Of a stretch of 64,000 nucleotides of DNA, positions 41,506-53,830 are shown piece after piece. Made by a program: the position numbers and the translations under genes. The DNA lies in assembly GCA_028875225.1 (NCBI GenBank), contig JAPPFB010000021.1:18168-82167 (forward strand), read 5' to 3'. Within the stretch, counting starts at the first letter, position 1. Each line of letters opens with the position of its first letter. Below the pieces are notes generated by a model. It made no database searches and had not been told where the DNA came from. It worked only from the letters and a program-made list of their open reading frames with translations. Origin of the DNA: Chloroflexota bacterium (GTDB lineage: Bacteria; Chloroflexota; Dehalococcoidia; Bin125).

Positions 41506-42558
41506 GTGTCTGAGTGGTCCAGGGGCGATCGACCGACCGCGACGGAGCCGCCGCCGGCGTCTCCCCGAGTGCCGCCCGTCGATCCGGCGTCCTTGCCGAC
41601 GCCCGACGTGGCGGACGAGTCTCCGCTCTCCACCCTGCGCAAGGAGATTGGCCGGGTCATCGTCGGTCAGGAGGGACTGGTCACCCGGCTGCTGGTCGCG
41701 CTGCTCTGCGATGGACATTGCCTCGTGGAGGGGGTACCCGGACTGGCCAAGTCACTCACGGTCTCAACGCTCGCCGACTGTCTCGACGCCGGCTACGCCC
41801 GCCTCCAGTTCACGCCCGATCTGTTGCCCGCCGATCTCACCGGTTCGGAGATCTACAACGCCGCCGAATCGAGATTTGAGGTACGCCAGGGTCCCATCTT
41901 TACCAACATTCTGCTCGCCGATGAGATCAATCGCGCGCCGGCCAAGGTCCAATCGGCGCTGCTCGAAGCGATGCAGGAACGCCAGGTGTCAATCGGCGGC
42001 CAGACGTTTCCGCTGCCCTCGCCGTTCCTGGTGCTGGCCACACAGAATCCAATTGAGCAGGAGGGCACTTATCCCCTCCCAGAAGCCCAGCTCGACCGAT
42101 TTCTGCTTAATGTGCGAGTCGACTATCCCGGAGAGCTTGACGAGCGCGAAGTCCTAGATCGCACCCTCACCGGCGAGGTCGTCACCGTTGGTTCGGTGCT
42201 CGCACTCGCCGACGTGCTCCAGGCGCGAGCGTCCGTGGCTGAGGTTCGCATGGAACCACGGCTGCGCGACTACATCGTGCAGTTGGTTCGCTCGACCCGA
42301 TCACCGGGTCGACAGGTGCGCGAACTGTCGGCCTATGTCGATTTCGGCGCATCGCCACGCGCGACGACCGCACTGGCGATGAGCGCCCGGGCGCTGGCCT
42401 GGTTGTCGGGCCGCGATTACGCGACACCGGACGACGTCAAAGCGATGGCGCTGGACGCGCTCCGCCACCGGATCGTCCTGAGCTACGAGGCCGAGGCGGA
42501 TCAGGTGACGGCGGACGACGTGATCGCGCGATTGCTCACGGCCCTGCCGGTGCCCTAG
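41506..42558 (+). CDS. MoxR-family AAA+ ATPase 1
   Basis: 350 residues. Walker A is GVPGLAKS (76-83), Walker B LLADE (136-140), sensor 1 LVLATQNPIEQEGTYPLPEA. The first ~40 residues are a Pro-rich extension not usual in MoxR. MoxR ATPases act as chaperones for VWA-domain proteins made by the same operon; here a DUF58 protein and two BatA/BatB-like VWA proteins follow. GTG start with a weak ribosome site. Confidence 0.9.
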   Translation: MSEWSRGDRPTATEPPPASPRVPPVDPASLPTPDVADESPLSTLRKEIGRVIVGQEGLVTRLLVALLCDGHCLVEGVPGLAKSLTVSTLADCLDAGYARLQFTPDLLPADLTGSEIYNAAESRFEVRQGPIFTNILLADEINRAPAKVQSALLEAMQERQVSIGGQTFPLPSPFLVLATQNPIEQEGTYPLPEAQLDRFLLNVRVDYPGELDEREVLDRTLTGEVVTVGSVLALADVLQARASVAEVRMEPRLRDYIVQLVRSTRSPGRQVRELSAYVDFGASPRATTALAMSARALAWLSGRDYATPDDVKAMALDALRHRIVLSYEAEADQVTADDVIARLLTALPVP

Positions 42559-42565
42559 GTCTGAC

Positions 42566-43516
42566 ATGTCCCGCCTGCAACGGATTCGCAAGTGGATCGC
42601 GCCTCCTCTGCCGGAGGCCAGATCGACAGCGCCAACCCTGGACGAAGTTCGCCATCAGGTGCGGCAGATCGAGGTACGGGCTCGCCGCGCCCTGCGCGAC
42701 GAACTGGCCGGCGAGTATCGAACCGCTTTTCGCGGACGGGGTCTCGAGTTCGCCGAGTTGCAGCCGTACAACCCCGGCGACGATGTTCGCTCGATCGACT
42801 GGAAGGCCACAGCCAGACTGCGGACTCCTGTGGTCCGCCGCTACGTCGAAGAACGCGAGCAGACAGTGCTGATTCTGGTGGATGTCTCGGGATCGATGGG
42901 ATACGCCGCCTCAGGACCATCGGTACGGGACCGTGCGGTCGAGATCGCCGGCGTCCTGGGACTGGCAGCCGCGGCCGCGAACGACGTCGTGGGCGTCGCC
43001 GCATTCTCGACCGACGTCGTGCTGGCCGTGCCGCCGGCCAAGGGATCGAGTCATGTGCTGCGGATTCTGCGCGACCTGCTCACGCTGCAGGCCGAGGGGC
43101 GGACCGAACTCGCCCGCGCGCTGCGCTATGCCGGACGCGTCATGCGCAAGCGCGGCGTGGCGATCGTGATCTCCGACTTTGTCGCCACGCATCCGGACCA
43201 CGTCTGGGAACCGGCGCTGGCGCAGCTGAGCCGGAGGCATGACGTGGTCGCGGTGTGCCTGCGCGACGCGCGAGAAACCGCGCTGGCGGCAGCCGCTCGC
43301 GGCTCGATCGTGCACTGGGGCGGAGCCGAACGAGGAGACATGATCCTGGCCGACGACCGCATCTCCCGGACGCAGGAGCAGGAACTGGCGAACGAGCGGC
43401 GCCAGATGCTCGCTCGATTGCGCCAGTGCGGCTGCGACGCCGTGATGATTGATACAGACGAGGATTGGGTACCGGTGCTCATTGGACTCTTCCGTCAACG
43501 TCGGAGCCGGCAGTGA
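42566..43516 (+). CDS. DUF58 domain-containing VWA-like protein 1
   Basis: 316 residues, soluble. The DUF58 core is YNPGDDVRSIDWKATARLRT. It is followed by a VWA-like metal site, LVDVSGSM (DxSxS), and DFVATHPD near residue 206. Such proteins are typical MoxR partners and may present a target protein to the ATPase. Starts 7 bases after moxR and ends in a GTGA overlap with the next gene. Confidence 0.88.
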   Translation: MSRLQRIRKWIAPPLPEARSTAPTLDEVRHQVRQIEVRARRALRDELAGEYRTAFRGRGLEFAELQPYNPGDDVRSIDWKATARLRTPVVRRYVEEREQTVLILVDVSGSMGYAASGPSVRDRAVEIAGVLGLAAAAANDVVGVAAFSTDVVLAVPPAKGSSHVLRILRDLLTLQAEGRTELARALRYAGRVMRKRGVAIVISDFVATHPDHVWEPALAQLSRRHDVVAVCLRDARETALAAAARGSIVHWGGAERGDMILADDRISRTQEQELANERRQMLARLRQCGCDAVMIDTDEDWVPVLIGLFRQRRSRQ

Positions 43517-44397
43517 AGCGTCTGCTGCTCGGCCCGCTGTTGTGCTTCACGGCCGTGCTGCTGGCAGCGGGCGCCTCGGCTGAAGCACCAAGCGCCAGCG
43601 TGTCCGTTGTCCCCGAGGGCGAGCTGACGGTCGGCGATCCCGTCGAGATCCGGGTCAGCGTGATCCACGAAGCGGGCGCCCGCGTGCTGATGGACGGTTC
43701 GGTCGTGCAGATGGGGGGGATGGAGCCCTCGGCGCCGGTGATCACCGAAGTCAGCGAGACCGAGACGCTGGTTGTGTTCCAGACCCGAGCATTCGCCTCG
43801 GGCAGGTTCGACGTCGAGCTGCCGGCCATTCCCATCCAGCGCGCCGACCGGTCACTCAGCGAACTTCGCTTGCGGCAGGCGGCGATCACGATCACTTCGG
43901 TGCTGGACGGCCAGTCCGAGCCGAGGCCTATCACCGGTCCCGATCTGCTTCAGGGTGACGACCGCACACTGACTCCATGGATCGTGGGAATCATCGGCAT
44001 CGGCCTGGGATTCGTCCTGGCGCGCCTGCTGCGTCGACGCTATCGGCGGCCGGCGGTTGTTGCCGGAATCGCGGACGGCGAGATCGCGATGTCCGAATCG
44101 GTGACGTTTGAACTGGATGCGGCTCTCGAGCCGGCGGAACAATGCCGACGCCTGTCCACAGCCGTCCGATCACGTCTCGGCGAGGACTGGTCGCTGCCGG
44201 CGTCGGCGCTGACGTCGTCGGAGATCGGGCCGGCGCTAGCGGCTGCCGGGGCGCCCGGCGCGGTCGTCCTTCGTGTGACCCGTCTGCTGGAAGCCTGCGA
44301 CCGTGCTCAGTTCGGCGGCGAACTGCCGACCACCGACCGTCTGAGCGGCTACGTGCAACTCGCCGAAGCAATCTGGGCGGATGGAGATTCGTCGTGA
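43513..44397 (+). CDS. BatD-like exported membrane protein
   Basis: About 294 residues. The GTG at 43513 overlaps the previous stop and has CGGAG 7 bases upstream; it opens with a signal peptide (KRLLLGPLLCFTAVLLAAGA). Residues ~28-140 are beta-rich and extracytoplasmic (GELTVGDPVEIRVSV), like the Ig-type front of BatD. A membrane helix at ~157-175 (WIVGIIGIGLGFVLARLL) is followed by a cytoplasmic helical domain. Much shorter than classical BatD. Assignment rests on layout and position between DUF58 and batA. Confidence 0.65.
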   Translation: MKRLLLGPLLCFTAVLLAAGASAEAPSASVSVVPEGELTVGDPVEIRVSVIHEAGARVLMDGSVVQMGGMEPSAPVITEVSETETLVVFQTRAFASGRFDVELPAIPIQRADRSLSELRLRQAAITITSVLDGQSEPRPITGPDLLQGDDRTLTPWIVGIIGIGLGFVLARLLRRRYRRPAVVAGIADGEIAMSESVTFELDAALEPAEQCRRLSTAVRSRLGEDWSLPASALTSSEIGPALAAAGAPGAVVLRVTRLLEACDRAQFGGELPTTDRLSGYVQLAEAIWADGDSS

Positions 44398-45359
44398 GAT
44401 TCGACGATCCGGCCCTGCTCGGGTTGTTGGCGTTGCTGGCGCCGTACCTCTGGCTGCTCCGGCGAGAGTCGCGACTGGTCCGGCCTCGATATCTCTTGCC
44501 GCAGCTCTATGGCGCGCCGCCGTTGGCCGCTCGCGCGGGCCGGCGGATGCGCGCCATGCCCTGGCTGGCCACGCTGCGCGTCGTGGCGCTCGTCCTGATC
44601 ATCGTCGCCGCGACCAGACCCCAGGCGACGACCGTCGAGGCCGTCAAGCCGGCCGAAGGCATCGACATCGTCCTGGTGATCGATACATCGTCATCCATGA
44701 CCACCGCGCGCCTGGCCGACGACGAGACCCGGATGGAAGCGGCCCGCCGGGTGGCGCGGGATTTCATCGCCGATCGCCAGGCCAACGGCACCGACCGAAT
44801 CGGTCTGGTCATGTTCCAGCGGCGGGCGCTGGTGATGAGTCCGCTCACCCTTGATCTGGACTCGATTGATGAGATGGTCGAGGTCTCGGTGCGCAGCGGC
44901 CTGATTCCCGACGGCACGGCGCTCGGCGTCGCCACGATGGAAGCGATCGACCTCCTGCGCGGATCGGAAGCGGTGTCGCGAATCGTGGTCGTTCTGACCG
45001 ACGGCGAAAACAATGTGCCCGACATCACGCCCAACCAGGCGGCAGCCGTGGCTCGTGCAACCGGGGTCAAGCTCTACACGATTGGTCTGCCCGCCAACGC
45101 GCGTGCGGTCGGCGTTGGCTTCAGCGAGCTGACCCTGGTCTACATGGCCGATGAGACTGGCGGTGTTTATTTTCGCGCCACCGATTCACAGGAGTTGTCC
45201 GAGGCCTACCAATCGATTTCGGAGTTGGAACGTAAGCGGGTTGGCGACGAGCTGTTTCTGACGACCGAGGAACTCGCGCCCTGGTTCCTGCTCGCGGCCG
45301 GCGTGTTGCTCGTGCTGGAGATCGCCCTGCGCTCGAGCTGGTGGCGGAGGCTGCCGTGA
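44394..45359 (+). CDS. BatA-like VWA membrane protein
   Basis: About 321 residues. Two N-terminal membrane helices (LLGLLALLAPYLWLL and LRVVALVLIIVAATRP) precede a VWA domain with a full metal site: DTSSSM (DxSxS), the Thr in PDGTALG and the Asp in LTDGENN. A last helix (WFLLAAGVLLVLEIAL) closes the protein. GTG start with GGAG 8 bases ahead, overlapping the previous gene by four bases. The VWA domain faces the periplasm or outside. The Bat system supports envelope integrity or stress tolerance in bacteria where it was studied. Confidence 0.88.
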   Translation: MRFDDPALLGLLALLAPYLWLLRRESRLVRPRYLLPQLYGAPPLAARAGRRMRAMPWLATLRVVALVLIIVAATRPQATTVEAVKPAEGIDIVLVIDTSSSMTTARLADDETRMEAARRVARDFIADRQANGTDRIGLVMFQRRALVMSPLTLDLDSIDEMVEVSVRSGLIPDGTALGVATMEAIDLLRGSEAVSRIVVVLTDGENNVPDITPNQAAAVARATGVKLYTIGLPANARAVGVGFSELTLVYMADETGGVYFRATDSQELSEAYQSISELERKRVGDELFLTTEELAPWFLLAAGVLLVLEIALRSSWWRRLP

Positions 45360-47224
45360 TCGATCTCGGTTCGCCCGGCATGCTCGCGCTGTTGGCGTTG
45401 ATTCCTGCGGCCGGGATCGGATGGTGGTGGCTGTGGCGCGCGCGCCGGTTGCATCGGATGGCCGTTGGAGCCCGGGTCGCAGGTGTTCGCCGGGGCACGA
45501 GGATGTCGCGCGCCCTGCTGCTGCTGGCGCTGGCGCTGCTCGCGGTGGCGTCGTCTCGGCCGATGTGGAACGCGGGTCAACAGACGCTGGGACGGTCGGA
45601 TGTCTCTCTCGTCGTCGCACTGGACGTCTCGCTGAGCATGGCCGCAGAAGACATCGGCGGCGGCGGCGAGCGGGTCAGCCGGTTTACCGCCGCCAAGTCC
45701 GAGATCCAGCGCCTGATCGACGGTCGCCGGGGAGATCGGGTCGGGCTCGTGATCTTTGCCGGCGATGCGTTTCTCCGATTCCCGCTGACCCGCGATCACG
45801 AAGCGGCGTTGCAAGTCCTTGAGGCGCTGGAACCGGGTGAAGCGCTGGTCGTTCCCGGCTCGAACATCGCCAGTGGCATCGAACTGGCAGCCGCCACCAT
45901 CGTCCGGGCGTCGGAGGAGGACGGCGCGAGCGATCTGAGCGGCGCGATCGCCGTTGTCAGCGATGGCGAGGTACACGTGGGAGACGCCGAGGCGGCGGCT
46001 TCTGTGGCGCGAGCGCAGGGACTGCAGGTGTTCGCGGTCGGCGTTGGCTCCGAGCGTGGCGCGACGATCCCGATCGAGGCCTCGGGCGAGCCGAAGCTCG
46101 ATCCGGAGACCGACGCGCCGATCGTGACACGGCTCGATGCTGCGCATCTGGAGCGCATCGCGGCCGCCGGGGGAGGCCGGTATCTCCGGCTGGATCGGCC
46201 CGGCGCCATGGCCGCGATGAACGCCGATTTCGCCGCGCTCGATCTGGTCCGCGACCTGGTCGTCGAAGAGACGGCGCTGGCGGAACAGTTTCAGTGGTTT
46301 GCCGGCGCGGCGGCAGTGGCCTTGCTTGGCGCGCTCGCCGCGCGCGTGTTTGGATGGTCGCTGGGCGGTCGCTTCGGTCTTGCCTCACTGGGCGCGCTGG
46401 CCGCCGCCATGCTGGTCGCGAGCGGCTGCGGGGGTCCGAGCGTGGAGCAACTCAATCGCGACGGCGTCAGTCATTACGAGGCGAGCCGGTACGCCGAAGC
46501 GCTCGAGTCGTGGCGCGAGGCCCAGGAGTTCGCTCGCGTCACCGACGTCGGGATCGATCCCCGGCTGCATCTCAACGCCGGTCGCGCACTGCATCAGCTG
46601 GGCGAACTCGACCGCGCAGAGACTGAGACGCTGAGCGCTTTGCGATCCGAGGATGCGGCCGTTCGCGCGATGGCCTGGTTTCACGCAGGCAACCATCGTT
46701 GGGCCGGCGACGATCTGCTGGGCGCGCGCCTGGCCTTCATCGAGGCGCTGCGCGAGTCGCCGACGCTGCTTGACGCCAAGATCAACCTCGAAATCATCAA
46801 TGGATTACTCGTTTCGCTCCTGGAAGAGGATGACGGGCAGTCTGGCGGCGAGCAAACGGGAGAGAGCGGGCAAGCTGGCCAGCCGTCGCCGTCCAACGAG
46901 TCGGCTGCCGGCCCCTCGGAGCAGGCAACGCCTGGTCAGGGAGAGCCCGGCCAGGCCGCCAGCGAAGGTCCGAGCCAGTCGGCGGCGGGAGGTCAAGAGG
47001 GCGTCGGTGCAGAACCGACGACGCCCACGTTCAGCGAAGAGGAATCGCTGCTGATGCGGCGACAGTCGGCGATGAGGGATCTACAGGCAGCACTGGCCGA
47101 GTTGCCGCTGGAAAACGCCAGCCTGGAACAGGCGCTGGCCGTGCTGGACGCGCTGCGTGCGGTGCCCGGCGACCGCCTGGCGGCCGGGCGACTCGGTTTC
47201 GGGAGCCGGCCGCTCGATTGGTGA
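45356..47224 (+). CDS. BatB-BatC-like fusion: VWA domain plus TPR domain
   Basis: About 622 residues. Two N-terminal helices, then a VWA domain (82-290) with LDVSLS metal site, Ser in VPGSNIASG and VVSDGE. Two helices at ~315-357 end in VASGCGG, a lipobox-like sequence with C358, just as a lipoprotein signal would. Residues ~362-475 hold TPR-like repeats (YEASRYAEALESWREAQEFA). Residues ~480-550 are Gln/Ser/Gly-rich and disordered. BatB (VWA) and BatC (TPR) are usually separate proteins. GTG start overlapping batA. The stop is 2 bases from the convergent transglutaminase-like gene. Confidence 0.82.
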   Translation: MIDLGSPGMLALLALIPAAGIGWWWLWRARRLHRMAVGARVAGVRRGTRMSRALLLLALALLAVASSRPMWNAGQQTLGRSDVSLVVALDVSLSMAAEDIGGGGERVSRFTAAKSEIQRLIDGRRGDRVGLVIFAGDAFLRFPLTRDHEAALQVLEALEPGEALVVPGSNIASGIELAAATIVRASEEDGASDLSGAIAVVSDGEVHVGDAEAAASVARAQGLQVFAVGVGSERGATIPIEASGEPKLDPETDAPIVTRLDAAHLERIAAAGGGRYLRLDRPGAMAAMNADFAALDLVRDLVVEETALAEQFQWFAGAAAVALLGALAARVFGWSLGGRFGLASLGALAAAMLVASGCGGPSVEQLNRDGVSHYEASRYAEALESWREAQEFARVTDVGIDPRLHLNAGRALHQLGELDRAETETLSALRSEDAAVRAMAWFHAGNHRWAGDDLLGARLAFIEALRESPTLLDAKINLEIINGLLVSLLEEDDGQSGGEQTGESGQAGQPSPSNESAAGPSEQATPGQGEPGQAASEGPSQSAAGGQEGVGAEPTTPTFSEEESLLMRRQSAMRDLQAALAELPLENASLEQALAVLDALRAVPGDRLAAGRLGFGSRPLDW

Positions 47225-47226
47225 GC

Positions 47227-50094
47227 CTAGTCGCCGGCCGGGGCGGGAGCCGTCGGCTCTGTCGGCTCAATCTCTTGCTCTGCGTCCACGGCGGGTTTCG
47301 CTGGAATGCGCAGGGCCTGGCGAACCAGGGCGGAGCGCAGCATCTTCCACAGCCGCGTGGTCGTCGCGCGCTCTTCCTCGCTCAGCGTCTTACGACCAAA
47401 TCGAGTCGCGGTGTAGTGATCCGCGAGGTCGATGGCCGGCGTCCCCAGCCCCAGGACCTGATCGATCCGTCTCGCGTGTTCCTGCGGGGTTGTCGAATCG
47501 TCCGCGCCGATCCCGGTCCAGCGGGCAAGCCGCGTGGCCGAGACCCAGTGCCGGGCGGTCGGTTCCAGCCCGCGCAGGGAGAGCCGCCAGATCAGCCAGA
47601 AGAGCACGATCAGCGCGACGGCGATGCTGGCGAAAATCGTTGGTCCCAGCCAGTACCACTTGCTCGGCCCCTGTTGCAATCGCAGGTTGTCGGCCGGCAC
47701 CGTTCCCGCGGCCAGGTACTGCAAGATGTCGTCGAGTACCACGTCGGCCAGACTCACGCCGCCTGATCCCGGTCGGAGGTCGAAGCGTGGAGTGGCCAGG
47801 CGCTGCGCGGCGATCCGCCGGCCGGCTCCGCCGCCACCGGCAATGGAGGCCAGGGCTTCATCCGCCGATGTCGTCGGCGTGGGGTCGAAGTCGACCCAGC
47901 CGAAGTCCGGGAAGTAGACCTCGACCCAGGCGTAGGCGTCGTGGCCGCGGACGATGTAGTTCTGGGTGCGATCGTCGAAGTTGTTGGCGCTGAGCACGAA
48001 ACCGGTCGCGATTCGCGCGGGCACGCCGGCCAGGCGCAGCAGAATCGCCATCGAAGACGCGTGGTAGTCGTAGTAGCCGCCGATCGGCCGGCCGTCGTCA
48101 TTGTTTTCGAACAGGAACCAGTAGACCGCGTCGGACTTGGCCGGCGGCAGCTCGATGTCGGTGGTCAACGGATACAGCGGGATCGCCTCGCCGTCGTCGC
48201 CGCGTACGACTCGGCCGTCTTCGTCGATCGCCGGGGCGGCGCGCAGATACGTCTCAATCGCCGATGCGATCGAGTACGGGTTGTAGCCATTGTCATCGCG
48301 CAAGGGGTCGGGCCCGAGATTGAAGCTCCTCGCGATCTGGTGCAACAGACCCGTCAGGTTGGCCAGTTCTTCTTCCTCATACTCAGGCAGTTGCAGGAAG
48401 GTCTCGCTCACCCACAGCGGATAGTCGTTCCCCGCTCCGGCCAGCGCGCCTTCGTTTGCGCCGGATACCGTACCGGTGATCTGATAGGTGAATCCCGCCC
48501 TGACCCGGCGCTGCGTCGGGCGCAGCGAGAGGACATCGGTCTCCTCGGGCACCGAGCGCAACAGCAGACCGACCGGCGCGCCGCTCTTCGAGTCCACAGC
48601 CACGTCAACCAGTGTGTACTGGGCCGGCACGTAGCTGGCCACCTCGTCGGCAGATGGCGGCTCAATCTCATCGTCCGCGTGCTCATTGCCTAGCGCGATT
48701 CGATCGCTGATTGCGGCCAGCGGCGACTCCAGGTCGGTACCGGCGAATCGGTCCGGTTGGGCGAAGTCGACGGTGAAGTCGACGGACGCCAGGGTGTCGA
48801 CCCTCAGATCCTTGTTGGCGATCACCGGCGCGCCGAACGAGAACATGACGGCCGGAGATTTCTCGACCGAGATCTGAGCGGCGACCGGACGGCGATCCAG
48901 GTATTCGCTGGTCATCACGGTGCCCTCGTTCTCCACCGATGTGTCGTCCGCCACCGAGGAACCGCTGATCGGTTCGAGTTCCCTGACGGTCCGCGCGACC
49001 GACGGAGATTGACGCCAGCCTCGGCCGGTGTACTCGTCATACGCCGCGCCGCGCAGCAGTCCCGGTTCGGTCGCGGCGGCGCGCATGATGATCGCGTCAC
49101 CGGGATCGACGTCGCCCTGCAGGACGAGGAAGTTGTCGAACGAGTGAACCGGCACGCCGCGGCGCGAGTCGATTCCGCTGAACAGTCGGCGGAAGTCGTC
49201 GTTCAGGCCGTCGAACGGCTCGGCGATTGCCGACCAGGCGTCTTCGAGCGCTTGCGACTCATCGGGCCGCGGAATCGCTCGCGAGAGGCTGAGCAACAGC
49301 ACGATGGCCAGCATCGTGGCGCCGAGGAACGAGAGCGAAATCCAGTCGGGATAGGCCGAGCCCTGCGCCCGCCAGCGATCCATCCGGCGCAGCAGCGATG
49401 CCCGCATCAGCAGCAGCATCGAACCGGTCAGGAAGAATCCGTAGGAGAGATTCCATTGCCGGTCGGACAGATAGGAGATGTTGACGGCCAGCAAGGCGCC
49501 GAGCAGGATCATGGCGACCCAGGCATTGCGCCAGCGAGCGACCGCGTACGCGCCCAGGAACGCTGCGATGAAGACAAAGACATCGGTGAAGAAGACGAAG
49601 GGCAGGTTGTCGGTCGTCAGGCCTGAACTGAAGGCCTGCTTGAACCAGTCCTGGAAGCGGAACCCGAAGTCCGTGAACCGGTCCCAGAACAGCGGCTGAC
49701 CGCCCAGCGTCTCCATCTGGGTGATCTGCGCCATGATGATCAGACCGCCCACGACGATTGCGATGAGCATCGCGAACGGCCAGCGCAGCCGGCGAATCTG
49801 TCCCAGGGCAATTGCCAGGATCACCGCAGCCGCGGCGGTGATCCGCAGGTCGGGCATGTCGGCGACCCAACCGGCGATGTAGATGCTGTTGGCCGTCGAG
49901 AGCGCGACCAACAGCAGGATGCCGAACGTGATCGTCGTCTCAAGCAAGCGCTGCGCGTTGGTCAGTGACTGCTGCTGGCCGGAGACGACCAGCGTCTCAG
50001 CGCTGGATCGTCGGGCGAAGAACCGCCGTTCCGCCTCCTGGACGTTGGAGGTCGCTTCGCGCTGTTCGTCCGGCTGCGGAGGCCTGGCGCTCAT
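47227..50094 (-). CDS. TgpA-like transglutaminase-fold membrane protein, catalytic residues replaced
   Basis: 955 residues. About six membrane helices occupy residues ~50-290, then a large outer region with the transglutaminase core (~640-745), one helix at ~812-834 (GPTIFASIAVALIVLFWLIW) and a cytoplasmic DUF4129-like tail (TPQEHARRIDQVLGLG). Family members read G-x-C-E-x-F-A where this has GYYDYHA, placing Y675 at the nucleophile Cys; they read DAHAW where this has DAYAW, placing Y721 at the catalytic His. The third residue, D737 in DFDPTP, is kept. The fold looks sound but the enzyme should be inactive. ATGA overlap with the DUF58 gene. Confidence 0.85.
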   Translation of the reverse strand: MSARPPQPDEQREATSNVQEAERRFFARRSSAETLVVSGQQQSLTNAQRLLETTITFGILLLVALSTANSIYIAGWVADMPDLRITAAAAVILAIALGQIRRLRWPFAMLIAIVVGGLIIMAQITQMETLGGQPLFWDRFTDFGFRFQDWFKQAFSSGLTTDNLPFVFFTDVFVFIAAFLGAYAVARWRNAWVAMILLGALLAVNISYLSDRQWNLSYGFFLTGSMLLLMRASLLRRMDRWRAQGSAYPDWISLSFLGATMLAIVLLLSLSRAIPRPDESQALEDAWSAIAEPFDGLNDDFRRLFSGIDSRRGVPVHSFDNFLVLQGDVDPGDAIIMRAAATEPGLLRGAAYDEYTGRGWRQSPSVARTVRELEPISGSSVADDTSVENEGTVMTSEYLDRRPVAAQISVEKSPAVMFSFGAPVIANKDLRVDTLASVDFTVDFAQPDRFAGTDLESPLAAISDRIALGNEHADDEIEPPSADEVASYVPAQYTLVDVAVDSKSGAPVGLLLRSVPEETDVLSLRPTQRRVRAGFTYQITGTVSGANEGALAGAGNDYPLWVSETFLQLPEYEEEELANLTGLLHQIARSFNLGPDPLRDDNGYNPYSIASAIETYLRAAPAIDEDGRVVRGDDGEAIPLYPLTTDIELPPAKSDAVYWFLFENNDDGRPIGGYYDYHASSMAILLRLAGVPARIATGFVLSANNFDDRTQNYIVRGHDAYAWVEVYFPDFGWVDFDPTPTTSADEALASIAGGGGAGRRIAAQRLATPRFDLRPGSGGVSLADVVLDDILQYLAAGTVPADNLRLQQGPSKWYWLGPTIFASIAVALIVLFWLIWRLSLRGLEPTARHWVSATRLARWTGIGADDSTTPQEHARRIDQVLGLGTPAIDLADHYTATRFGRKTLSEEERATTTRLWKMLRSALVRQALRIPAKPAVDAEQEIEPTEPTAPAPAGD

Positions 50095-51583: not shown

Positions 51584-52534
51584 TCATGATGCGGCTCTGG
51601 CGCCCGGCACCGCGACCCGTTCGAGGACATCGTCGACCACCGTGCGGGCATCCTGATTTCGCACCTGGGCCGAGGGGCTGAGAATGATGCGGTGGCCCAG
51701 CGCCGCGTGGGCCAGCGCCTTGATGTCGTCGGGAATCACATAGTCGCGACCGGCCAACAGGGCCGACGCCTGCGCACAGCGGAAGAGCGCCAGCGACCCA
51801 CGCGGCGACGCGCCGAGGTAGACCGCTTCGTGCGAACGGGTCGCCGCAACCAGCTGGACGGCGTACTGCTTGAGCTGCGGATCGACCCAGATGTCGCGGG
51901 TCACCCGGTGAATCTCTCGGACCTCCTCGGGCGATGTCACCGGTGTCAGCGATTCGATCGGATGTTGCTGCTGTTGACCTTCGAGTACGGCGACCTCGTC
52001 ATTGGCGTCGGGATAGCCGAGATGAATGCGCAGCAGGAAGCGGTCGAGCTGCGCCTCAGGCAGGGGGAACGTGCCTTCGTACTCGACCGGGTTCTGAGTC
52101 GCCATGACCATGAATGGCGGCGGCAAGGGGCGGGTGACGCCGTCCGCGGTGATCTGCCGTTCCTCCATCGCCTCCAGCAGCGCCGACTGTGTTTTGGGGG
52201 TGGCCCGATTGATCTCGTCGGCCAGCACGATCTGCGAGTAGACGGGACCGTGCCGCCATTCAAAGTCTTGCGTTTTCTGGTTGTAGACCGACACGCCGGT
52301 GACATCGGACGGCAACAGGTCGGGAGTGAACTGAATCCGGTTGAATGTGCAACCGGTGGAGACCGCCAGCGCCCGAGCGAGCATCGTTTTGCCCGTTCCC
52401 GGGACATCCTCAATCAACAGGTGGCCGTCGGCGACCAGCGCGATGACTGCCTGCCGCACTTCTCTCGTCTTGCCCAGGATGACGCGCTCGACGTTGGCCA
52501 CCACACTGAGGAGCACGGTTCGGGGATCGTCCAT
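51584..52534 (-). CDS. MoxR-family AAA+ ATPase 2
   Basis: 316 residues without the N-terminal extension of copy 1. Walker A DVPGTGKT (43-50), Walker [11 protein letters not shown] with D106/E107, sensor 1 [20 protein letters not shown]. First gene of the moxR-DUF58-TgpA module, the common arrangement for this type. The differing P-loop of the other MoxR (GLAKS against GTGKT) shows that the two belong to different MoxR subfamilies rather than to a recent duplication. Confidence 0.93.
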
Positions 52535-52675: not shown

Positions 52676-53830
52676 ATGTCCCATTCGGATGAACTCACGA
52701 AGGAACAACGGGGGTTGCCACTGCAATCGCCCTCCTATCCGCTCCGGCTGAGCCGACGGACCGTGTTGCGTGCGCTGGTCGGCGCCGGCGCCGGCGTGTT
52801 GCTGACCGCGTGTGGCGGCGACCGCCTCGACCCCTTCGCGAGCAACGGGCAGCCGACGCCTCCGCCGTCCAGATCGGCGGACGAGGCCGCAGGGGCGGCC
52901 CAACCACAGTCCCAGGTCGATCAGGCAACCTCTCAGTCAGGCGAGCAGGCCGATGGCGGCGTTGAACTGCCCGAGCCGCTGGTCTACATCATCCCCAGTC
53001 CAGCCTCGCAGGGACAGACGGTGCTCGTTCTGATCGAAGCGCCCGGCGCGCATGCGGCGTCGCTGTCGTGGCAGGGTCAGGCGTTCTCGCTGCTCAAGAG
53101 CGAGGAGCGCTTCCTGGGCTTCTTCGGCATCGACGCCAATGCACCGGTCGGCCCCCAGTCGCTCGGCGTCGCCGTCTGGGGTCCGCGGGGCGAGCAGCTG
53201 CTCTGGCAGGAGACGGTAATCGAGATCGAATCGGTGGAGTGGACGATCGACAACATCCAGATCGACGGTCCCAATGCGGCGCTGCTCGAGCCGGCTATTC
53301 GCCGGGCCGACGAGACGGCCAGGCTCCCGTTTCAGTCGAGCCTGACGCCGCAGCTGCACTGGTTGGGCGTGTTCGATCCGCCGTCCGACGGGCAGATCAC
53401 CGCCCTCTACGGTGAGCAGCGTTCGTTCAACGGCGGACCGATCGAGGAGTACCACACCGGCATTGACTTCGGCGGCGAGACCGGTTCGTCCGTGACCGCG
53501 GCGAACAGCGGCATCGTCAGTTGGGCAGGTCGCACGAGGCGCCGCGGCAACGGCATCATCGTCGACCATGGCGCAGGCGTTTTCACCGGCTACTACCACC
53601 TGTCCGAAGTGCTGCAGACGGCGGGCGAGGTGGTCGAGCAAGGCGATCTGATCGCGCGGATGGGCGCCACCGGACTGGCCACCGGTCCGCACTTGCACTG
53701 GGAGGTGGTCGTCCGCGGGATCACTGTCAATCCACTGCCCTGGCTGCAGCTCCTGGAATTTCCGGACCCGTTCCAGGAGTTGAACCCCACCAACGCGCTC
53801 ACATCGACGAACCTGGCCCAGGGTTCGTAA
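52676..53830 (+). CDS. M23-family peptidoglycan endopeptidase, Tat-exported lipoprotein
   Basis: 384 residues. The N-terminus has a twin-arginine motif (SRRTVLRAL, R27-R28), a hydrophobic core and the lipobox LTAC with C46, so it should leave folded through Tat and be lipid-anchored. Then come a Pro/Ser/Gln-rich spacer, a beta domain (~100-190) and the M23 domain. The Zn ligands H260 and D264 (HTGIDF), H308 (YYHLS) and H341 in PHLHWEV are all present, so it should be an active LytM-type enzyme cutting peptide cross-links. The neighbouring MoxR/TgpA module also concerns the envelope. Confidence 0.9.
   Translation: MSHSDELTKEQRGLPLQSPSYPLRLSRRTVLRALVGAGAGVLLTACGGDRLDPFASNGQPTPPPSRSADEAAGAAQPQSQVDQATSQSGEQADGGVELPEPLVYIIPSPASQGQTVLVLIEAPGAHAASLSWQGQAFSLLKSEERFLGFFGIDANAPVGPQSLGVAVWGPRGEQLLWQETVIEIESVEWTIDNIQIDGPNAALLEPAIRRADETARLPFQSSLTPQLHWLGVFDPPSDGQITALYGEQRSFNGGPIEEYHTGIDFGGETGSSVTAANSGIVSWAGRTRRRGNGIIVDHGAGVFTGYYHLSEVLQTAGEVVEQGDLIARMGATGLATGPHLHWEVVVRGITVNPLPWLQLLEFPDPFQELNPTNALTSTNLAQGS

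Follow-up and report, generated by a model that had tools for sequence, protein, structure and literature searches.

The window (the whole stretch of DNA that was analysed, 64,000 nucleotides) belongs to a member of a deep Dehalococcoidia branch and contains, on the minus strand at positions 47227–50094, the coding sequence of a TgpA-like membrane protein of 955 residues that is predicted to be a pseudo-transglutaminase. The frame starts with ATG and was intact across all 955 codons, with zero internal stops, as had been stated in the first-pass annotation. Upstream of this transglutaminase (TG) gene and on the same strand are the genes for a DUF58 protein (PF01882, 50091–51542), which shares 4 bases with the start of the TG gene, and a MoxR AAA+ ATPase (AAA_3 and AAA_lid_2, 51584–52534), giving the order MoxR-DUF58-TG. 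Modules consisting of MoxR, DUF58 and a transglutaminase are common in bacteria. On the plus strand (41506–47224), another MoxR-DUF58 set was observed, with VWA and VWA-TPR proteins encoded after it in a Bat-like order. The two sets lie tail to tail, with their ORF ends (47224 and 47227) 2 bases apart, which places two MoxR-DUF58 modules within about 11 kb. On the other side, a plus-strand gene that runs divergently from MoxR (52676–53830) encodes a lipoprotein-like peptidase of the M23 type, in which HxxxD and HxH motifs are apparent and which might connect the module to the cell wall.

In the Pfam search, the 955-residue protein matched Transglut_core (PF01841; 56.5 bits, above the cut-off of 23) and DUF4129 (PF13559; 31.6 bits, above the cut-off of 24.8), the latter at residues 854–916 (47347–47535, minus strand). 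The match to TgpA_N (PF11992) was weak, covering residues 80–379 with 24.5 bits, below the cut-off of 30 (E 1.6e-5). In the hydropathy profile, 6–7 hydrophobic segments were found in the N-terminal membrane part (residues 50–270; 49285–49947, minus strand). One further hydrophobic segment was located near the C-terminus (residues 820–838; 47581–47637, minus strand), and a weak hydropathy peak at residues 683–701 falls within the folded TG domain. From the N-terminal segments and segment 820–838, the TG domain is predicted to be extracytoplasmic, as in TgpA.

A phmmer search against solved structures aligned Pseudomonas aeruginosa TgpA (6g49; GFC...DAHAW...VDPT) to the active site, with Tyr675 and Tyr721 in the catalytic Cys and His columns of TgpA and Asp737 in its catalytic Asp column. 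On the minus strand, Tyr675 is encoded by TAC at 48070–48072 (motif GGYYDYHA), Tyr721 by TAC at 47932–47934 (motif GHDAYAW), Asp737 by GAC at 47884–47886, and His678, at position +3 from the Cys site, by CAC at 48061–48063. Tyr at both the catalytic Cys and the catalytic His had been proposed from the sequence, and both the residues and their codons proved correct. A profile built from 115 relatives aligned the same columns to 6g49 (E 3.4e-30), and the His and Asp columns are 16 residues apart in TgpA as well as in the window's protein. The features of an active enzyme are absent, since Tyr675 replaces the Cys at the helix N-terminus and Tyr721 replaces the His on the following strand. It is general knowledge on transglutaminases that the catalytic Cys is needed for the activity of TgpA. 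That another pair of residues forms the catalytic dyad, the site having been misaligned or misread, has practically no chance of being correct and was rejected: an alternative Cys/His pair is excluded by a cysteine count of zero in the entire protein, the profile match and the 16-residue spacing agree with TgpA, and the presence of the same residues in many independent genomes excludes a sequence error at both codons. No support for such a reading was found.

Alignment with Chloroflexota homologues indicated that the double Tyr is fixed in the window's family, as Y/Y was present in 19 of the 19 family genomes with a readable site, which represent four genera (genome G250, with a partial gene lacking the TG region, was not counted). 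The closest relatives were metagenome genomes of Dehalococcoidia and Chloroflexota, and had Y/Y wherever the site was covered. The survey sample consisted of 120 regions from genomes of the class and the phylum, plus further loci obtained from searches. Among 223 distinct TG domains, the Cys/His columns were occupied by C/H (133), F/Y (24), Y/Y (18), S/H (17), F/W (13), F/F (10), A/H (5), and S/E, A/F and S/L (1 each). All 65 aromatic pairs came from the window's class (56 in class-placed genomes and 9 in named close relatives), and none was found among the 134 sequences from other Chloroflexota classes, which had C/H (126), S/H (5) and A/H (3). Two class genomes that were read later had S/W and A/L. 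Regarding other phyla, Cys and His were kept in seven plasmid-borne homologues from haloarchaea, Actinomycetota and Pseudomonadota, where no aromatic pair was seen, a sample too small to speak for these phyla; a Bacillota homologue, matched in two pieces, also had Cys and His.

The aromatic sequences differed from their Cys-His relatives at other positions of the site as well. The +3 residue was Phe or Tyr in 132 of the 133 Cys-His sequences and His or Gln in 51 of the 65 aromatic ones. The stretch before the His column comprised 21 residues in 109 of 133 Cys-His sequences versus 23 in 44 of 65 aromatic sequences. In the third catalytic column, Glu was nearly universal among the Cys-His sequences (132 of 133), Asn prevailed among the aromatic ones (42 of 65), and the window's family had Asp. 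As far as the alignment tells, the changes at the +3 position, at the third catalytic residue and, mostly, in the two-residue-longer loop before the His strand are coordinated. The third catalytic Asp, which the first-pass annotation had described as kept, is indeed shared with TgpA, but against the Chloroflexota relatives, with Glu in the Cys-His sequences and mostly Asn in the sister aromatic lineages, Asp737 is not a simple retention.

Phylogenetic trees were built without the three catalytic columns. FastTree placed all aromatic sequences, together with three odd rows, in one 68-row set with a support of 100 (220 full-length sequences), and IQ-TREE with a mixture model yielded the same split (31 of 58 rows, 100/100). 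The aromatic pair was carried by 65 of the 68 distinct sequences of this single Dehalococcoidia clade, which spans at least 9 families, and the rows with S/E, S/L and A/F were nested within it. The nested position of these rows suggests that the sites can drift after catalysis has been lost, with aromatic pairs preferred; judging from these rows and from the S/W and A/L forms in or by the clade, the aromatic pair is a preference and not an obligation. The direction of change is read as loss because Cys-His predominates in every other class and was also the usual pair in the phyla sampled outside Chloroflexota.

The transglutaminase-fold domain (residues 548–764; 47803–48453, minus strand) was modelled by AlphaFold2 with the 115 relatives (pLDDT 88.6, pTM 0.86), while an earlier AlphaFold model of residues 286–798, based on ten close relatives, was set aside (pLDDT 41.5). 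In the model, Tyr675 (model residue 128) begins helix 128–141, Tyr721 (model residue 174) is on strand 173–181, and Asp737 (model residue 190) is located just after strand 185–189, a predicted layout corresponding to that of the transglutaminase active site. Comparison with active transglutaminases, which had been suggested as a check, gave TgpA as the top match in Foldseek (6g4h and 6g49 at ranks 1–2, E about 3e-8), with both tyrosines at the predicted active site. VIA-align matched the model to 6g49 (Z 10.3, 154 residues, rmsd 3.5) and to 3isr (Z 11.8), and its matches included protein 4.2, which is related to transglutaminases and associated with a membrane but has no activity. Because Cys-His relatives were among the alignment rows, the model shows compatibility with the fold, not closure of the cleft.

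Selection was analysed within the genus using our own Nei-Gojobori script (14 sequences, 91 pairs, median dS 0.7–1.2). The dN/dS ratios were 0.058 in the TG core, 0.051 at residues 154–280, 0.125 in the extracytoplasmic part before the TG core and 0.198 in the C-terminal part; thus, the TG core together with the membrane segments was the most constrained. For comparison, the TG core of a Cys-His clade of another class had a dN/dS of 0.20 at a dS of 0.67. Tyr675, Tyr721, Asp737 and His678 were invariant in 18 distinct family sequences, and synonymous exchanges were observed at codons 721 (TAT/TAC) and 737 (GAC/GAT). The TG gene is under strong purifying selection, and it combines lost catalytic residues with a conserved gene, which is the mark of a pseudoenzyme. 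Decay of the gene since the loss of its catalytic site might be suspected from the absence of both catalytic residues and from one in-frame TGA within the matched region of a relative; however, it is scarcely credible and was rejected by the selection test, with dN/dS values of 0.05–0.20 in every region; wherever else in the family the gene was complete, its frame was intact, and the gene order of the module is conserved. In the relative with the TGA (L029 of genome G232, same family), the part of the frame that carries the TG motif is open.

The earlier suggestion of a conserved module of MoxR, DUF58 and a TgpA-type protein agreed with the gene order in the window, which was also kept in relatives. 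DUF58 was directly upstream in all 57 aromatic loci for which the available sequence was long enough (56 identified by script, plus L090, in which an extended ORF overlaps DUF58), and MoxR was present in all 43 aromatic loci having at least 3 kb upstream. No second TgpA-type transglutaminase was found in the window's genome, where the PF01841 profile matched this protein and, weakly, a 290-aa protein (profile positions 3–71). The same picture was obtained for 12 further genomes of the window's genus, with no compensating intact paralogue. As mraY was detected in 64 of the 66 aromatic genomes, nearly all of them probably produce lipid-linked peptidoglycan; loss of peptidoglycan was accordingly rejected as the cause of the lost catalysis in the aromatic clade.

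We consider it fairly likely that the protein is a membrane-anchored homologue of transglutaminases that has lost catalysis and whose TG domain is kept for its shape, for binding or for holding a partner. The substitutions, the module and the purifying selection all favour the membrane pseudo-transglutaminase of the first-pass annotation, and a binding or scaffolding role is plausible. We infer from the substituted residues that transglutaminase or protease activity has probably been lost in the aromatic proteins. The Cys-His dyad would have disappeared in the ancestor of one Dehalococcoidia clade and, in most descendants, would have been replaced by two large aromatics, namely Tyr/Tyr in the window's family and, in other lineages, Phe at the Cys site paired with Tyr, Trp or Phe at the His site. 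The aromatic side chains may fill the former catalytic cleft, and the domain may bind or hold a partner at the outer face of the membrane, for example, a cell-envelope polymer or a protein of the module, while MoxR and DUF58 would act inside.

The same annotation had also raised a Tyr-based chemistry, which did not hold up. The invariance of Tyr675, Tyr721, Asp737 and His678 in the 18 family sequences, despite synonymous changes at codons 721 and 737, would suit a new chemistry of the Tyr/Tyr/Asp set in the window's family, but the sister lineages use other residues: the Cys site is Phe, not Tyr, in 47 of the 65 aromatic relatives, and the His site is Trp or Phe, not Tyr, in 23 of them. This variety of Phe, Tyr and Trp is better explained by packing than by a chemistry of hydroxyl groups, and makes a Tyr-based reaction very unlikely. 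To our knowledge, no transglutaminase-fold enzyme uses a Tyr nucleophile. The main rival to a dead domain kept as a scaffold is a former cleft that serves as a ligand-binding site, in which the aromatics stack on a cell-wall sugar or peptide; the protein would then serve MoxR-DUF58 as a sensor or receptor and not as a passive scaffold. This is a possibility that we hold only tentatively: it fits the occurrence of mraY in the aromatic genomes, where lipid-linked peptidoglycan is probably made, the strong constraint on the TG core and the membrane segments, and the inactive papain-like fold DUF1175, a reported peptidoglycan binder (PMC10318531), but the variation among Phe, Tyr and Trp suits packing equally as stacking, and Cys-His genomes with mraY also exist. 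It seems rather doubtful, though conceivable, that an envelope transglutaminase was repurposed at the class level into a receptor with a rebuilt pocket that reports the cell-wall state to MoxR-DUF58; four rebuilt positions (Cys to Phe/Tyr, +3 Phe/Tyr to His/Gln, His to Tyr/Trp/Phe, and Glu to Asn/Asp), together with the longer loop, would then contribute to a specific binding pocket.

Returning to the probable dead homologue, its nearest characterized counterpart is TgpA of P. aeruginosa (PA2873; PDB 6g49 and 6g4h), for which transglutaminase activity, a conserved triad and essentiality have been demonstrated (PMC3507681); a Cys mutant of TgpA was not found in that paper. Both proteins have N-terminal membrane segments, an extracytoplasmic TG domain (predicted in the window's protein) and a C-terminal segment, and both are encoded by the third gene of the set, which is co-transcribed in the case of TgpA. 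In contrast, TgpA has Cys-His-Asp, measured activity and an essential role, whereas the window's protein has Tyr-Tyr-Asp and no Cys. The Cys-His-Glu DUF3488/TgpA-type proteins of other Chloroflexota share homology with the window's protein along most of its sequence, and many have DUF58 and MoxR upstream, but they differ in having the catalytic Cys and His, Glu as the third residue and Phe/Tyr at +3. Inactive transglutaminase homologues, including protein 4.2 and FBXO21 (PMC10318531), are already known, as are degenerate papain-fold proteins. Erythrocyte protein 4.2 (EPB42; PDB 7uzs, 8csw and 7tvz) is similar to what is predicted here, being an inactive, membrane-held transglutaminase fold with a structural role; however, it is eukaryotic, lies on the cytosolic side, has another domain set and lost its activity independently. 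DUF1175 is a precedent for a dead papain-fold protein with reported peptidoglycan binding, although from a different family.

Aromatic-substituted TgpA homologues were not found in the literature searched, in which the coverage of subscription papers was incomplete; neither was a class-level TgpA clade with coordinated aromatic replacement, the search having turned up one DUF3488 paper. The clade-wide coordinated aromatic replacement in TgpA homologues, as deduced from sequence comparison, thus appears to be what is new here. That a large clade keeps the module under strong selection without the catalytic residues implies that at least part of the module's job needs no transglutaminase catalysis, and the aromatic and Cys-His versions, as naturally occurring proteins without and with the catalytic residues, lend themselves to testing such a catalysis-free role.

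Other departures from the Cys-His site were also observed. Ser at the Cys site, with His and Glu kept, was present in TgpA-like proteins from 9 Dehalococcoidia families (class genomes L065, L069, L070, L086, L106, L127, L043 and L062). A full mraY was found in 0 of 13 Dehalococcoidia genomes with Ser-His-Glu, versus 64 of 66 aromatic genomes; in Dehalococcoidia, the exchange of Cys for Ser accompanies an apparent loss of peptidoglycan synthesis, part of which may be explained by shared ancestry. In other classes of the phylum, forms that retain His and Glu but have Ser or Ala in place of the catalytic Cys (L147, L166, L168, L171, L176, L178, L184 and L187) were scattered over several tree positions, and the nucleophile seems, from these sequences, to have been lost more than once in the TgpA-like family. 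In L254 and L272 (genome G006, family f7), an open frame of 2181 codons encodes a tandem pair of TG domains, both of which carry Cys-His-Glu (GTCGTFSS and GTCGQFSS).
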